Shown here piece after piece: positions 14,820 through 21,029 of a stretch of 42,852 nt of DNA. The stretch lies in the NCBI GenBank assembly GCA_009843915.1, contig VYCM01000148.1, positions 1 through 42,852 on the forward strand, in the 5' to 3' direction. Origin of the DNA: Acidimicrobiaceae bacterium. Lineage in GTDB: Bacteria; Actinomycetota; Acidimicrobiia; Acidimicrobiales; Aldehydirespiratoraceae. The first letter of the stretch is position 1; every line of letters starts with the position of its first letter. A model generated the notes under the pieces. That model had not been told where the DNA came from and did no database searches. It saw only the letters and a list, made by a program, of their open reading frames with translations. A program made the position numbers and the translations under genes.

Positions 14820-17582
14820 ATGCATCCTTTGCTGCCATCCTTAATGACAGTGGCCGACAACTTCCTGCGCCAACTTCCGGACATCGACCCAGCCGAGACC
14901 CAGGAGTGGATCGACTCGCTCGACGCCATCATCGCGGCCGGAGGCCGGGAGCGAGCCCGCTACATCGTGGCCAAGCTCCTGGAACGCTCCAACGAGCAGC
15001 GGGTGGGCGTGCCGCCGACCACGTCGACGCCCTACATCAACACCATCCCCGCCTCCGAGCAGCCCTTCTTCCCCGGAAACGAGCAGGTCGAGCGGCGCAT
15101 CCGCCGCTTCATCCGGTGGAACGCGGCGGCCATGGTCATCCGGGCCAACAAGACGGCCGACGGGATCGGCGGCCACCTGTCCACGTTCGCCTCGTCGGCC
15201 TCCCTGTACGAGGTGGGCTTCAACCACTTCTTCAAGGGCAAGGACGACGGCCTGGTCGGCGACCACATCTACTTCCAGGGCCACGCCGCTCCCGGCGTGT
15301 ACGCCCGGGCCTACCTGGAGGGCCGCTTGAGCGAGCGGGAGCTCGACAACTTCCGGATGGAGGTCGGCGGCAACGGCCTGTCGGGCTACCCCCACCCGCG
15401 GCTTATGCCCGACTTCTGGGAGTACCCGACGGTGTCGATGGGGCTGGGGCCGATCAACTCCATCTACCACGCCCGCTTCAACCGGTACATGCACCACCGA
15501 CGCATCGACGACACGTCCGGCAGCACGGTGTGGTGCTTCCTGGGCGACGGCGAGTGCGACGAGCCCGAGACCCTGGGGGCCATCGCGCTGGCCGGACGCA
15601 GCGACCTCGACAACCTGAAGTGGGTGGTCAACTGCAACCTCCAGCGCCTCGACGGCCCGGTGCGGGGCAACGGCAAGATCATCCAGGAGCTCGAGGGCGT
15701 GTTCCGGGGCGCGGGCTGGAACGTGATCAAGGTGATCTGGGGCACCCGGTGGGACGAGCTGCTGATGCGCGACACCGACGGGGCCCTGCTCAACAAGATG
15801 GCGACCACCGTCGACGGCGAGTACCAGCGCTACGCGGTGGAGACGGGCGCCTACATCCGGGAGCACTTCTTCGGCCCCGACCCCCGCCTGCGCAAGCTCG
15901 TCGAGCACCTCAGCGACGAGGACCTGCGGGTCCTGCCCCGGGGAGGCCACGACTACCAGAAGGTGTACGCCGCGTTCAAGGCCGCCACCGAAGTCAAGGG
16001 CCAGCCCACCGTCATCCTGGCCAAGACCATCAAGGGATGGACGCTGGGCGAGGGCTTCGAGGGCCGCAACGCCACCCACCAGATCAAGAAGATGACCGCA
16101 TCGCAGCTGATGGAACTGCGGACGCGGCTGCACATGGAGAACGAGATCGACGAAGCAGACCTCGCCGACGGGATCCCGCCCTACTACCGGCCGGCCCCCG
16201 ACTCGGAGGAGATGCGCTACATGATGGACCGCCGCCGCGCCCTCGACGGGGCAGTGCCGCGGCGGGTGGTGCGGGACCGCCGCCCCATCACGCTCCCCGC
16301 CGACGGACCCTTCATCGACATGCGCAAGGGCTCCGGCGGGCGCGAGGTCTCCACCACGATGGCATTCACAGCCCTGCTGCGCGATCTGATGCGGGACCAG
16401 CACTTCGGCCGGCGGGTAGTTCCCATCGTGCCCGACGAGGCCCGCACCTTCGGCATGGACTCGCTGTTCCGGGAGTTCCGCATCTACGCACCCCACGGCC
16501 AGCTCTACGAGCCCGTGGACCACGACCTGCTGCTGAGCTACAGCGAGTCGACCGACGGCCAGATCCTCGAGGAGGGCATCACCGAGTGCGGCTCGCTGGC
16601 CAGCTGGCTGGCCGCGGCCACCTCCTACGCCAACCTCGGCGTGCCCATGGTGCCCTTCTACGCCTTCTACTCCATGTTCGGCTTCCAGCGGGTGGGCGAC
16701 TCGATCTGGGCCGCAGCCGACGCCCGGGCCCGGGGGTTCCTCATCGGCGCCACCGCGGGGCGCACGACGCTGCTGGGCGAGGGGCTCCAGCACCAGGACG
16801 GCCACAGCCACGTACTGGCCTCGACGGTGCCCCCCTGCGAGTCCTACGACCCGGCCTTCGCCTACGAGTTGGGGGCCATCGTCGACGAGGGCCTGCACCG
16901 GATGTACCCGCCGGACGCCGCCGACGGCACCGACGTCTTCTACTACATCACCATCTACAACGAGAACTACGAGCAGCCGCCCCGTCCCGATCACGTGACC
17001 GACTCCGACATCACCGGCGGCCTGTACAAGTTCGACGACGGCCCGGGGAGCCGCCAACGCTCGGCCACCATCCTGTTCTCGGGAGCGTCGGTGGGAGCCG
17101 CGCTCGAGGCTCAGGCGCTGCTGGCCGAGCATCACGACACGTCGGCCGAGCTGTGGAGCGCAACCTCCTACCAGCGGCTGCGGCGCGAGGCCATCGACGT
17201 GGAGCGCCGCAACCGGCTGCATCCCACTGACGAGCCCGCCGTTCCGATGGTCACCCGGCAACTGTCCGATTCCGACGGCCCGATCGTGGCCGTGACCGAC
17301 TTCATGACCCTGGTCCCGGACCAGATCGCCCGCTTCACTCCGAGGCCGCTGCACGTGCTGGGCACCGACGGGTTCGGCCGCTCCGACACCCGCGAGGCGC
17401 TGCGGCGATTCTTCGAGGTGGACGGGGTCCACATCGTGCTGGCCGTGCTGTCGGCCTTGATGGAATCGGGCGAGGCGTCGGCGGACGAGGTCGCGGACGC
17501 CATTGACCGGTACGGCATCGACGTCGACCGCGACGACCCCGGCCATCCCGACACCGGCGCACGGCTATCCTCAAACGGGTGA
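14820..17582 (+). CDS. aceE: Pyruvate dehydrogenase E1, homodimeric type
   Basis: A 920-residue thiamine diphosphate enzyme that decarboxylates pyruvate and acetylates the lipoyl arm of E2. The long single-chain E1 architecture, the TPP/Mg motif GDGECDEPE...NCNLQ (about residues 241-280), FFPGNEQVERRIRR and the C-terminal transketolase domain are typical AceE features. ATG 14820 has GAGG 7 nt upstream; an in-frame ATG at 14844 (MTVADNFLRQLP) has no such site, so the longer form is kept with modest certainty. It heads a plus-strand group: its TGA overlaps the GTG start of the HhH-GPD gene, which in turn overlaps the first selenoprotein gene. Confidence 0.96.
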   Translation: MHPLLPSLMTVADNFLRQLPDIDPAETQEWIDSLDAIIAAGGRERARYIVAKLLERSNEQRVGVPPTTSTPYINTIPASEQPFFPGNEQVERRIRRFIRWNAAAMVIRANKTADGIGGHLSTFASSASLYEVGFNHFFKGKDDGLVGDHIYFQGHAAPGVYARAYLEGRLSERELDNFRMEVGGNGLSGYPHPRLMPDFWEYPTVSMGLGPINSIYHARFNRYMHHRRIDDTSGSTVWCFLGDGECDEPETLGAIALAGRSDLDNLKWVVNCNLQRLDGPVRGNGKIIQELEGVFRGAGWNVIKVIWGTRWDELLMRDTDGALLNKMATTVDGEYQRYAVETGAYIREHFFGPDPRLRKLVEHLSDEDLRVLPRGGHDYQKVYAAFKAATEVKGQPTVILAKTIKGWTLGEGFEGRNATHQIKKMTASQLMELRTRLHMENEIDEADLADGIPPYYRPAPDSEEMRYMMDRRRALDGAVPRRVVRDRRPITLPADGPFIDMRKGSGGREVSTTMAFTALLRDLMRDQHFGRRVVPIVPDEARTFGMDSLFREFRIYAPHGQLYEPVDHDLLLSYSESTDGQILEEGITECGSLASWLAAATSYANLGVPMVPFYAFYSMFGFQRVGDSIWAAADARARGFLIGATAGRTTLLGEGLQHQDGHSHVLASTVPPCESYDPAFAYELGAIVDEGLHRMYPPDAADGTDVFYYITIYNENYEQPPRPDHVTDSDITGGLYKFDDGPGSRQRSATILFSGASVGAALEAQALLAEHHDTSAELWSATSYQRLRREAIDVERRNRLHPTDEPAVPMVTRQLSDSDGPIVAVTDFMTLVPDQIARFTPRPLHVLGTDGFGRSDTREALRRFFEVDGVHIVLAVLSALMESGEASADEVADAIDRYGIDVDRDDPGHPDTGARLSSNG

Positions 17583-18169
17583 AGCAGGTCGGGACAGGCA
17601 CTCTGGCGGTCACGGGCGACGACGCTGCCGACCGCCTGCTCAACACCGATCCCCTGGCGTTGCTGCTGGGCATGCTGCTCGACCAGCAGATCCCCCTGGA
17701 GTGGGCCTTCATGGGGCCTTATCGCCTGGTCGAGCGGCTGGGTTCCGAACTGGACGCGGTGGACATCTCCGAGTTGGACCCGGACGACTTTGCCGCCCTG
17801 GTCAGGGCCAAGCCGGCGCTGCACCGGTTTCCGAGCTCAATGGCCAAACGGATGCAGGCCCTCTGCCGGCATGTTGCCGATCACTACGACGGCGACGCCG
17901 GGGCGGTCTGGAACGCTGCGGCGAACGGTGAGGACCTCTTCCGGCGGCTGCGGGACCTGCCCGGCTACGGGGACGAGAAGGCCCGGATCCTGACCGCTGT
18001 GCTCGCCAAGCGCTTCGGCGTCCGTCCCGACGGCTGGGAGGCGCAGGCCGGAGCCTTCGCCGACAGCGAGCCGCGATCGGTGGCCGACATCGACAGCCCG
18101 GAAGCGCTACAGCGGGTGCGGGCCTGGAAGAAAGAGCAGAAGGCTCGCGGCAAGAGGAAGGACGAATGA
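17579..18169 (+). CDS. HhH-GPD base-excision-repair-like protein (TIGR03252 type)
   Basis: A 196-residue protein of an uncharacterised actinobacterial branch of the helix-hairpin-helix DNA glycosylase superfamily. LLGMLLDQQIPLEWAF (residues 29-44) matches the N-terminal helices, and LPGYGDEKARIL near residue 131 is the helix-hairpin-helix DNA-binding turn. No iron-sulfur cysteines are visible. A glycosylase activity is inferred from fold only; the C-terminus is Lys-rich. GTG 17579 overlaps the aceE stop (GTGA) and its own stop overlaps the next start (ATGA), so it is translationally coupled on both sides. Confidence 0.85.
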   Translation: MKQVGTGTLAVTGDDAADRLLNTDPLALLLGMLLDQQIPLEWAFMGPYRLVERLGSELDAVDISELDPDDFAALVRAKPALHRFPSSMAKRMQALCRHVADHYDGDAGAVWNAAANGEDLFRRLRDLPGYGDEKARILTAVLAKRFGVRPDGWEAQAGAFADSEPRSVADIDSPEALQRVRAWKKEQKARGKRKDE

Positions 18170-18717
18170 GAGTCCGACTCCTGACGTGCGCGGTGATCGT
18201 CGCCCTCGCGGCGGCAGCCTGCGGGTCCGACGACGCCACGACCATCAACGAGCCGGCTTCCACTGGGACCGACGTCGCGGCTTCCGATGCCCCTGCCAGC
18301 CCGTCCGGAGATGTGCCCGACCTCGACATGGTCAGCGTGTACACGGGCGAGACCGTCAACCTCCAATCCCTGGTGAGCGGCGAGACGCCGCTGCTGCTCT
18401 GGTTCTGGGCGCCCCATTGACCCACCTGCCGGAGAGAGGCTCCGGCCCTTGAGCAGTTCGCTCAAGACAACGCCGGCAAGGTGACGGTCGTGGGGATAGG
18501 CGCCCAGGACGACTTCGCTTACGCCGAACGATTCGTGTCCCAGACCGGGACCACCTTCACCATGCTGTGGAGCGACTCCAATGAGAGCTGGCGCCACTTC
18601 GAAGTTCGTAGGAACTCAAGCGTGCGACTACTGGACAGCGGCGGCAACCTGGCCGACGACAGCCCCGGCAGCTTCGACGCAGCGAGGCTCAGCGACGAGC
18701 TTGCTGCCCTAACCTGA
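18166..18717 (+). CDS. Thioredoxin-like selenolipoprotein 1 (in-frame TGA = Sec85)
   Basis: Read through the TGA at 18418-18420, this frame encodes 183 residues. A lipoprotein signal (hydrophobic 5-18, lipidated Cys19) and a Ser/Asp/Pro linker precede a TlpA/redoxin-like domain. The sequence LLLWFWAPH-U-PTCRREAP places the TGA at the first cysteine of the thioredoxin CxxC, with Cys88 as resolving residue; typical homologues read FWATWCxPCRAEAP. After the TGA come the expected beta strand (KVTVVGIGAQ), a Trp-containing strand and a C-terminal helix. A hairpin 8 nt after the TGA resembles a bacterial SECIS. The final stop is another TGA without such a hairpin. If TGA is read as stop, an 84-residue product lacking its redox centre results. 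It overlaps the preceding gene as ATGA. Confidence 0.82.
18428..18446 (+). promoter_or_regulatory. Candidate bacterial SECIS element 1
   Basis: GCCGGAG (18428-18434) and CTCCGGC (18440-18446) form a perfect 7-bp stem closing the loop AGAGG. The G at loop position 2 is 16 nt after the TGA. Known bacterial SECIS elements sit immediately downstream of the UGA, inside the coding region, with a G among the first two apical loop nucleotides at roughly 16-37 nt; this matches. The same bases encode Cys-Arg-Arg-Glu-Ala-Pro. Confidence 0.7.
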
Positions 18718-19908
18718 GTGATGAATATGCCGTACGCCGTCCGGATTCTTGCGGTGTTCCTGGCCGTCGCTCTGCCTGCCGCCGCCTGCGGTAGTGAGGA
18801 TGAGCCGGACGCCAGCCCCCGGAACACGGGCGCCAGCGCCGAGGATCAGGCCGCTCTCGAGCGGGCTCAAGCCGAAGCCGAAGCAGCCGCGGCGGAAGCC
18901 GCCGCAGCCGAAGCGGCCCAGGCCGCGGCCCAAGCCGAAGCCGAAGCAGCCGCCCAGGCCGCGGCGGAGGCCGAAGCCGCTGCTGAGGCTGAAGCAGCCG
19001 CGGAAGCCGCGGCTCAAGCGGAGGCCGAAGCCGCGGCCGCCAAAGCGGCTGAGGCCGAACTCGCGCTGGCGGCTGCTGAAGCGGAGCCTGAAGGAACCGT
19101 GGACCCCGAGGTGGTCGACGAACTCGAGCAGCAGTTGGCGCAGGCCCAGGCCGAAGCCGAGGCAGCCGCCGCCGAAGCTGCCGCGAAGGCAGCCGCCGCC
19201 GAAGCCGCCGAGTTGGCAGCCGCCGCCGAAGCCGAAGCCGCCGCGGAGGCCGCAATCGCCGAGGCGGAAGCCCGAGCCATAGCCGCCGAAGCCGAGGCCC
19301 TGGCCGCAGCCGCGGAAGCCGAGGCCGAAGCAGCGGCCCAAGCCGCAGCCGCTGAGGCCGCAGCCCAAGCCGCAGCCGAGACCACGACGACAGCCGCGCC
19401 CACAACCACCGCCGCGCCCACAACCACCGCAGCACCAACGACAACCGGCGCGGCGACCACCACCGCCGCGCCCACAACCACCGAAGCACCGGTCATCGAG
19501 ACCGACGTGCCGGCTCAGGACATGATCGATGTGCGCACGGGAGCGACCGTCAACCTCCGCGACTTCGTGGACGGCTCGACACCCCTGCTGCTCTGGTTCT
19601 GGGCCCCGCATTGACCGACCTGCCGGCGAGAGGCCTCGCCGGTCGGGCAGTTCGCCCGAGACAACGAAGGCAAAGTCATCGTCATCGGTGTGGGCGGCTC
19701 GGACACCCTTGCCCAGGCCAAGAGCTTCGCAACCACCTATGGCGGTCCGGCCAACATGCTTTGGGGCGAGTCCTTCGAGGCGTGGAGGCACTACAACACC
19801 GGCAACCCCACCTTGATTCTCCTCGACGGCGCCGGCGTGCAACAGATCGAGAAGATCAGCGGGTTCAACGCGAGCCGCCTCCAGGACGCACTGGACAGCC
19901 TCACCTAG
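18718..19908 (+). CDS. Thioredoxin-like selenolipoprotein 2 with coiled-coil stalk (in-frame TGA = Sec299)
   Basis: Read through the TGA at 19612-19614, this frame encodes 396 residues. A lipoprotein signal ends at Cys24. Residues about 40-220 are an extreme Ala/Glu-rich helical stretch, interrupted near 122-140 by a short Pro/Gly/Asp/Val segment (EGTVDPEVVDELEQQL). Residues 222-258 are a Thr/Ala/Pro linker of the exported-protein type. A thioredoxin-like domain then contains LLLWFWAPH-U-PTCRREASP with Cys302 resolving. Post-TGA sequence continues as a good fold (KVIVIGVGGS, NPTLILLDGAG) to TAG at 19906-19908. The start is GTG 18718, ATG 18721 or ATG 18727; GTG directly abuts the previous stop. 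The paralogue next door has the same TGA at the same place, arguing against a sequencing error or decay. Confidence 0.8.
19623..19642 (+). promoter_or_regulatory. Candidate bacterial SECIS element 2
   Basis: CCGGCGAG (19623-19630) and CTCGCCGG (19635-19642) form a perfect 8-bp stem with loop AGGC; the loop G is 18 nt after the TGA. CCGA (19615-19618) and TCGG (19643-19646) can add a lower stem across a small bulge. Compared with element 1, the A-U pair (18433-18441) is replaced by a C-G pair (19627-19638) while GAGAGGC around the loop is retained, a covariation that supports selection on the structure. Confidence 0.7.
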
Positions 19909-20048: not shown

Positions 20049-21029
20049 GTGCGCAACTCAAGGCGCCGGCTCCTCTGGCTGCCGGCGATTCTCGTGAGCC
20101 TGGCGCTAGTGGCCGCAGCATGCGGCGGGGACGGCGAGGACGCGGGTGAAGCCACGCCGGGCACGGTGAACATCTCGGGCTCGTCGACCGTGGAGCCGAT
20201 CTCAATCCGGGTGGCAGAGCTGTTCGAGGACGTGGCGCCGGGCATTTCCGTCACCGTGGACGGTCCCGGCACCGGTGACGGCTTCAAGCTGTTCTGCGAG
20301 GGAGAGACCGACATCTCCGACGCGTCCCGCCAGATCAAGGACCAAGAGAAGGAAACCTGCCTCGCCAACGGGATCGACAACATCATCGAGCTCAAGGTGG
20401 GCGTGGACGGCATCGCGGTGATGACCAGCGAAGACAACGACGCCGTCGAGTGCCTGACCTTCGACCAACTGTTCGACCTCATCGGCCCCAACGGCGAGGG
20501 CACCACCAGCTGGGCCGAGGCCTCACCCGGGCTACCCGACGCTCCGCTGGACATATTCGGGCCGGGCGAGGAATCCGGAACCTTCGACTCCTTCATCGAG
20601 ATCGTCCTTGAGGACCTCGCGGAGGTAGCCGGAGTCGAGGCCACCACCCGCACCGACTACATCCCCTCCGGCGATGACAACGTCATCCTTCAGGGCATCC
20701 AGTCCAGCGACACCAGCCTGGGCTGGGTCGGCTTCGCTTTCGCCATCAACGCCACCGGCGCGAAGTTGCTCGAGGTCGACGGCGGGAACGGCTGCGTCAG
20801 CCCCACAGGCGAGACCATCGCCTCCAACGAGTACCCCATCAGCCGAGACCTGTGGATCTACGTCAACGCGGACAAGGCCGCCGCCAACGACGCCATCGTC
20901 GCCTACCTGGACTTCTACGTCTCAGAGGCGCTGTCGACCGCAGTCGGCGACGTCGGCTACGTACCCCTGACCGAAGCGGCCCGCGCCGAGACCGCCGAGC
21001 GCTGGCACAGCCGCACAACCATCGGTTGA
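20049..21029 (+). CDS. pstS: Phosphate ABC transporter substrate-binding lipoprotein
   Basis: A 326-residue periplasmic-type phosphate receptor. A basic N-terminus, hydrophobic helix and lipobox VAAACGG (lipidated Cys25) give membrane anchoring. SGSSTVEPI (residues 40-48) and FGPGEESGTFDSF near residue 176 are the classical phosphate-binding segments. GTG 20049 has GGAAGGG about 8 nt upstream. It heads the pst operon directly after the PHO-box array. It is followed by pstC after 53 nt. Confidence 0.95.
   Translation: MRNSRRRLLWLPAILVSLALVAAACGGDGEDAGEATPGTVNISGSSTVEPISIRVAELFEDVAPGISVTVDGPGTGDGFKLFCEGETDISDASRQIKDQEKETCLANGIDNIIELKVGVDGIAVMTSEDNDAVECLTFDQLFDLIGPNGEGTTSWAEASPGLPDAPLDIFGPGEESGTFDSFIEIVLEDLAEVAGVEATTRTDYIPSGDDNVILQGIQSSDTSLGWVGFAFAINATGAKLLEVDGGNGCVSPTGETIASNEYPISRDLWIYVNADKAAANDAIVAYLDFYVSEALSTAVGDVGYVPLTEAARAETAERWHSRTTIG

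Follow-up and report, generated by a model that had tools for sequence, protein, structure and literature searches.

The DNA analysed here (the window) is a 42,852-nucleotide stretch of contig VYCM01000148.1 from an Acidimicrobiaceae bacterium (GCA_009843915.1), and it contains two adjacent genes that are each crossed by an in-frame TGA within the same active-site motif. An original prediction had proposed that these are tandem genes for exported, thioredoxin-like lipoproteins in which the TGA encodes selenocysteine (Sec, U) at the first position of a CxxC redox site. Our reading of the window bore out the arrangement it described: the motif WFWAPH-U-PTCRREA is identical in the two genes, and each frame stays open beyond its TGA, with 98 residues between U and the stop in gene 1 and 97 in gene 2. 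We annotated the two genes and their candidate Sec codons as follows.

18166..18717, + strand: putative Sec gene 1; ATG start, signal peptide, lipobox (C19), U85, redoxin/thioredoxin-like domain, TGA stop at 18715-18717
18418..18420, + strand: in-frame UGA of gene 1 (codon 85), candidate Sec codon at the first position of UxxC, from Sec/Cys pairing in homologues and co-occurrence with selA
18718..19908, + strand: putative Sec gene 2, a lipoprotein gene; start at GTG 18718, ATG 18721 or ATG 18727, TAG stop at 19906-19908
19612..19614, + strand: in-frame UGA of gene 2, candidate Sec codon (U296 if numbered from ATG 18727), from Sec/Cys pairing in homologues

The coding region of gene 2 opens immediately 3' of the gene 1 stop codon, as had been proposed, and the start of gene 1 overlaps by 4 nt the end of an upstream open reading frame (ORF) of the HhH-GPD family. 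Both proteins carry a hydrophobic signal and the lipobox AAACG, recognized by motif match and reading without a dedicated predictor, and this agrees with their earlier description as exported lipoproteins. They differ in the spacing between the lipid-bearing Cys and U: 66 residues for gene 1, 275 for gene 2. A 234-residue stalk in the gene 2 protein accounts for this difference; 119 of its residues are Ala and 43 Glu, it includes two stretches free of Pro and Gly (85 and 97 residues), and it ends in a Thr/Pro-rich linker.

Probable selenocysteine decoding of the in-frame UGA codons

The homologue set consisted of 90 loci plus the window and gave 113 domain matches, which represent 87 distinct sites after deduplication. 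U or C followed by xxC stood at the exact active-site position in 111 of the 113 matches; the other two are one gene present in two collections, with an unreadable active site. Across the 87 sites, 72 carry TGA as the active-site codon and the remaining 15 a Cys codon. The search for either codon in homologues, which the original prediction had suggested, thus returned both, and the Cys forms place the window TGAs at the redox cysteine. Fifty-eight of the TGA sites are close relatives (type A, with the locus L065 counted among them) and 14 belong to a second paralogue type. The frame continued for 94-111 residues beyond the TGA in 71 of the 72 sites, the exception being L065, a decayed copy. 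From these comparisons, we regard a chance origin of the two in-frame TGAs as excluded. L065 itself, from genome G039, carries an extra TGA plus a TAG and appears to be a selenoprotein pseudogene.

The family is widespread among relatives. The 20 loci found in an initial collection search included 13 from assemblies titled Acidimicrobiaceae or Acidimicrobiia, and a homologue was present at E <= 0.001 in all 100 relatives searched. The viral contigs searched yielded no relative, and the plasmid search gave a single partial match.

TGA terminates 7 of the 14 window ORFs that we checked, and this would fit with the in-frame TGAs being ordinary stops that leave behind pseudogenes or short peptides. 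Against such a reading stand the long open frames past the TGA, the Cys found at the same codon in homologues, the co-occurrence of TGA homologues with selA and a downstream hairpin conserved beyond synonymous expectation (both described below), and we give it practically no credence. Alternatively, the TGA could be read as another amino acid, via genome-wide reassignment or a Cys-inserting suppressor tRNA, which would suit the Cys found at the site in homologues. However, of the 71 TGA genes that are intact (L065 excluded), 45 also use UGA as their terminator, so that UGA is not reassigned in these genes, in line with the original prediction's dismissal of a changed code. The hairpin, tRNA-Sec, selA and a Sec-containing SelD are also all present, and we consider this alternative very improbable.

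We searched the genome of the window (3.24 Mb in 151 contigs, 87.8% complete) for the Sec machinery. It encodes a tRNA-Sec with anticodon UCA (66.9 bits), selA (342.7 bits, reaching base 3 of its contig and therefore the contig end) and selD (362.6 bits; L023:4226-5140 (+), contig C54). The selD gene carries an in-frame TGA of its own (HGAGUACKI), an independent Sec site that makes selD itself a putative selenoprotein gene. Three of the four components named in the original prediction were thus recovered; the fourth, selB, was not. The best sub-threshold selB matches, with the ORFs identified by reading, were EF-Tu and then IF-2, and another was EF-G. Across 100 genomes (the window's own and relatives), selB exceeded the cut-off in 75. 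Among the genus mates it did so in 14 of 15, and in 13 of those 14 it lay on the same contig as selA, within 2 kb.

The distribution of TGA homologues follows that of selA. Scoring as selA-positive any genome with a selA match at E <= 0.001, fragments included, we found a TGA homologue among the matches listed in 57 of 80 genomes with selA versus 0 of 20 without (p = 1.8e-9). We did not use the equivalent tRNA-Sec count (79 of 100 genomes over the Rfam cut-off), which includes some tRNA-Ser, as ARAGORN indicated in one case. Genome G019, from the same family, has neither selA nor selB over the cut-off, and the active-site codon of its orthologue is TGT; its tRNA-Sec match reaches just 48.5 bits, a strength seen for tRNA-Ser elsewhere. 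Two other genomes, G068 (locus L125) and G099, have strong tRNA-Sec matches (67.6 and 65.8 bits, the former confirmed by ARAGORN) yet no selA match.

Two results count against Sec decoding: no selB over the cut-off was found in the 87.8%-complete genome of the window, and 23 of the 80 selA genomes had no TGA homologue among the matches listed. Taken with the Sec/Cys pairing, the machinery, the selA co-occurrence and the hairpin, we nevertheless consider it nearly certain that the two UGA codons are decoded as Sec, much as the original prediction supposed. The joint claim, that this decoding takes place within an exported thioredoxin-fold protein, is in our judgment highly likely.

Hairpins downstream of the UGA codons

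Each gene can form two hairpins 3' of its UGA, and these are candidates for the selenocysteine insertion sequence (SECIS). We refer to the more distal one as the AGUU hairpin, after its loop, and to the other as the upstream hairpin.

18449..18465, + strand: hairpin of gene 1 and probable SECIS, with loop AGUUC at 18455-18459; the core stem has 6 bp, and the folded stem has 7 bp and spans 18448-18466
19643..19659, + strand: hairpin of gene 2 and probable SECIS, with loop AGUUC at 19649-19653 closed by the stem UCGGGC/GCCCGA
18428..18446, + strand: upstream hairpin of gene 1, of uncertain role; present in the fold, with a weaker, register-variable signal
19622..19643, + strand: upstream hairpin of gene 2, of uncertain role; loop AGGC at +17, fitting the published SECIS model

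The AGUU loop starts 34 nt after the UGA, and the window hairpins fold at -10.3 (gene 1) and -10.9 kcal/mol (gene 2). A published model of bacterial SECIS elements specifies a loop of 3-9 nt, a stem of 4-16 bp, a G in the first two loop positions, 16-37 nt from UGA to loop and a minimum free energy (MFE) <= -7.5 kcal/mol (PMC13188914, Fig. 2 legend). Both window AGUU hairpins satisfy it in loop size (5 nt), stem (6-7 bp), position of the G (second in the loop), spacing and MFE. Counting hairpins of any kind, 52 of the 58 close TGA sites had one that fits the model; among close Cys sites this was so for 1 of 13, and among control positions within these genes for 53 of 522. The AGUU hairpin on its own passed in 51 of the 58.

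The stem is maintained across the family. Its inner four pairs are intact in 58/58 close TGA sites versus 0/15 Cys homologues, and all six pairs are intact in 54 of the 58. Over 57 distinct rows, 98.8% of cells were paired, with 26 double-change cells, a level that none of 500 shuffles reached, while register-shifted versions of the stem attained at most 48.2% and the 15 Cys homologues a chance-like 37.8%. Concerted variants of the stem include GAGC/GCUC, GGGC/GCCC and GCGC/GCGC, as well as UUG/CAA and UCG/CGA, and the fifth base of the loop is C in 48 of the close TGA sites, U in 7, G in 2 and A in 1. Compared with synonymous recodings, the region from +28 to +54 after the UGA folds far more stably in the 58 close TGA sites, with a mean z of -2.5 and p <= 0.05 in 84% of them, whereas the same region in 13 close Cys sites does not (mean z +0.1). 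The Gln codon at the loop is CAG in 58/58 close TGA sites versus 2/15 Cys homologues; its conservation with TGA and rarity with Cys therefore point to selection on the RNA. A genome-wide pattern search for the AGUU hairpin gave 21 matches, with a TGA at the right distance only in the two window genes, and three of six further TGA matches from 396 genomes of the phylum carry it, one of them from another class. These patterns make the AGUU hairpin a probable recoding signal and thus a candidate SECIS.

The second paralogue type, with the motif FWAPWU, occurs at 14 sites in other genera (L153-L158, L160-L166 and L168). None of these has an AGUU hairpin. They have instead a hairpin of their own with a GGUC loop, in which 94% of cells are paired and which is the best hairpin in 13 of the 14; folding energies at these sites stand out less from synonymous recodings (best window z -1.1). 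The SECIS of Escherichia coli formate dehydrogenase has a GGUC loop, shared with this second type, and is a coding-region hairpin 3' of the UGA, as here; the window family differs from it in its AGUU(C/U) loop and 34-nt spacing. Two SECIS classes would thus seem to serve one family of proteins.

Several observations weigh against these hairpin assignments. The MFE lies above the published limit in six of the 58 close TGA sites and in 8 of the 14 second-type sites (6 pass). The double changes in the AGUU stem are confined to two of its six pairs, and 484 of 500 shuffles attain that number of pairs. Among the six further TGA matches from the phylum, two more distant ones lack the AGUU hairpin and one was unreadable. 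Finally, in some genes, window gene 2 included, the upstream hairpin likewise fits the model and outscores the AGUU hairpin in that test.

A hairpin at +8 to +26 was initially considered as the main SECIS and was replaced by the one at +29 to +45; the earlier candidate differs in register between branches. Of the cells of this upstream hairpin, 63.5% were paired in a group of 43, whereas the 14 members of the gene 2 group reached 82.1%. In the close TGA sites, the hairpin between the UGA and the AGUU hairpin is also stronger than synonymous recodings would predict, in a varying register. The upstream hairpin may be part of the recoding signal. Of the two candidates, the AGUU hairpin is the better conserved, although SelB may read either one.

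Fold, redox partners and proposed function

Gene 1 matched the Pfam models Redoxin (49.5 bits), AhpC-TSA and two thioredoxin models, and gene 2 matched AhpC-TSA (33.5 bits), all over their gathering scores. Of the curated NCBIfam families, a set that includes selenoprotein ones, none among the matches listed (17 for gene 1 and 7 for gene 2) reached its cut-off. The confident structural model of the gene 1 domain, with a predicted local distance difference test score (pLDDT) of 95.7, was closest to DsbF (3IOS; template modelling (TM) score 0.81), followed by MPT53 (1LU4; TM 0.76) and then ResA, and sequence searches agreed. DsbF and MPT53/DsbE of Mycobacterium tuberculosis are thus the nearest proteins by sequence (phmmer 1.7e-14 and 1.6e-12) as well as by fold, and they share the W-F-W-x-P-x-CxxC site, although with Cys in place of the window Sec. 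ResA and CcmG share the fold (TM about 0.8) at 15-26% identity and without Sec. A separate TlpA/ResA-like gene of the window genome has the Cys motif CPPC.

One position opposite the active site distinguishes gene 1. Where DsbF and MPT53 have Pro, which we take to be the cis-Pro that is a hallmark of the thioredoxin fold, gene 1 and much of its branch have Asn-Ser, while gene 2 has Asn-Pro. In gene 1 this Asn-Ser follows the domain's conserved Trp. Of the close TGA rows, approximately 31 of 57 have Asn-Ser and approximately 14 Asn-Pro, counts that include some mislabelled rows (e.g., gene 2 of L026). The Cys orthologue at L035 also has Ser at this presumed cis-Pro position.

The best explanation of these comparisons is that both genes encode exported, lipid-anchored, Sec-containing forms of DsbE/DsbF-like (TlpA/ResA-type) oxidoreductases, and thiol-disulfide exchange is their likely activity. 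In such a scheme, the selenolate would attack disulfides, or else sulfenic or peroxide groups, of extracytoplasmic substrates, the Cys of UxxC would provide the resolving step, and a CcdA-type membrane carrier would supply electrons. The net role would be the reduction, repair or isomerization of exported proteins and not bulk disulfide formation. With its short tether, the gene 1 protein might act near the membrane, while the long and probably helical stalk of the gene 2 protein might let it reach further out.

The redox partners encoded in related genomes bear on the direction of this exchange. VKOR, a usual oxidase partner in actinobacteria, was found in none of the 13 genus genomes searched, whereas a CcdA-like (DsbD_TM) gene was found in all 13. 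A reductive or exchange role is plausible because of these two results, and we consider a reductive direction an evenly balanced proposition. In the window genome, a CcdA-like gene directly follows the CPPC TlpA-like gene (L240:1547-3324 (-), contig C62) and may be the electron donor of extracytoplasmic redox proteins. A point against giving weight to this partner is that DsbD_TM exceeded its cut-off in 20 of 21 genomes searched, including genomes without selA, and is therefore not specific. In the same 21 genomes VKOR occurred in three (G052, G055 and G058), all of them without selA, that is, in 3 of 5 genomes without selA versus 0 of 16 with it, and there may be a link between the lack of VKOR and the presence of Sec redox proteins.

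Oxidative folding, that is, disulfide formation in the manner of DsbE/DsbF, would fit the nearest solved structures, DsbF and MPT53. The partner distribution in the genus argues against it, and Sec favours reductive or exchange chemistry, so that we judge this alternative rather unlikely. A further possibility is that the proteins are cell-surface thiol peroxidases that use peroxide, in keeping with the Redoxin and AhpC-TSA matches and with the Pro-to-Ser change that gene 1 and much of its branch show across from the active site. However, the active site reads UPTC, a UxxC with a resolving Cys, and lacks the peroxiredoxin TxxC motif, and DsbF and ResA lead the structural matches, while chains of peroxidase type (Bcp1, yeast thiol peroxidase) first appear at rank 32; a peroxidase role is therefore unlikely. 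Thiol-disulfide exchange by lipid-anchored oxidoreductases can also be extended into a bolder proposal, which we consider a long shot: that in this lineage selenium-based, CcdA-driven thiol exchange on short and long lipid tethers replaced the VKOR-linked disulfide system, and that Ser beside the selenolate gives the gene 1 branch a chemistry not known in the thioredoxin fold, for instance the binding of a metal or cluster, or the ability to reduce oxidants directly.

Family history, known relatives and genomic setting

We built a tree of 86 domains, of which the protein alignment A6 contains 69. The genus sequences of gene 1 (12 rows, support 100/97) and gene 2 (14 rows, 100/100) form separate branches, sequences from other genera lie nearer to gene 1, and the fork joining both branches has a support of 94/76. 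The duplication likely predates the genus, although this dating is not firm. The distribution of Sec and Cys needs eight changes on the tree, at least five of them on well-supported branches. The Cys orthologue of G019 falls within a branch of Sec forms (99/90), so a replacement of Sec by Cys is probable in that genome. In G018, from a neighbouring genus, a TGA gene pair (L057 and L133) is identical around the active site and appears to stem from a separate, more recent duplication.

Selenoproteins with a UxxC site are an established group. Table 1 of PMC13188914 includes a redoxin family selenoprotein (PF08534), a peroxiredoxin-like (Prx-like) thiol:disulfide oxidoreductase (PF00578) and a thiol-disulfide isomerase-like selenoprotein (cd02966), and UxxC redoxin and Prx-like selenoproteins are reviewed as well in PMC9312934. 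The entries of PMC13188914 share their Pfam domains and the Sec position of UxxC with the window genes. Its class descriptions, in the parts of the article available to us, mention neither actinobacteria nor lipid anchors, stalks or this hairpin; compared by description in this way, the two groups may still be close kin. The unusual redox system envisaged in the original prediction is accordingly new in its exported tandem form, while its UxxC chemistry belongs to known classes. What appears new is the lipid-anchored tandem pair, the long stalk, the Ser at the cis-Pro place of gene 1 and the sequence of the candidate SECIS. A search of the literature on Acidimicrobi selenoproteins or selenocysteine, judged by title or the start of the abstract, returned no publication on these genes.

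These genes give the Sec machinery of a poorly studied group of actinobacteria a concrete purpose, namely exported redox proteins that have widely retained Sec. A study of sponge microbiomes (PMC5649159) reports SelA and SelB together in most symbiont bins and their absence from most of the references related to them. If the present assemblies are sponge symbionts, as isolate names of this style may suggest, these genes may partly explain the presence of SelA and SelB there. The family also amounts to a natural experiment, with Sec and Cys forms, sites with and without the hairpin, and lineages with and without the machinery, and the AGUU hairpin could help to find other selenoproteins that annotation has split.

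The original prediction had placed the pair in an operon beginning with aceE. That neighbourhood is conserved across the genus and in G018, but it has little bearing on function: in 5 of 20 regions from relatives, parE-like and parC-like genes flank the site instead, and further regions have neither setting. With flanks that differ among relatives, we dropped the gene neighbourhood as a clue to function. The neighbours in the window, assigned with Pfam, are the following.

14820..17582, + strand: pyruvate dehydrogenase E1 (aceE-like)
17579..18169, + strand: gene of the HhH-GPD DNA repair family; its end overlaps gene 1 by 4 nt
20049..21029, + strand: substrate-binding protein (PBP_like_2), PstS-like by position

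The genes 3' of the PBP_like_2 gene encode, by Pfam, two permeases, an ATP-binding cassette (ABC) ATPase, PhoU and a histidine kinase.

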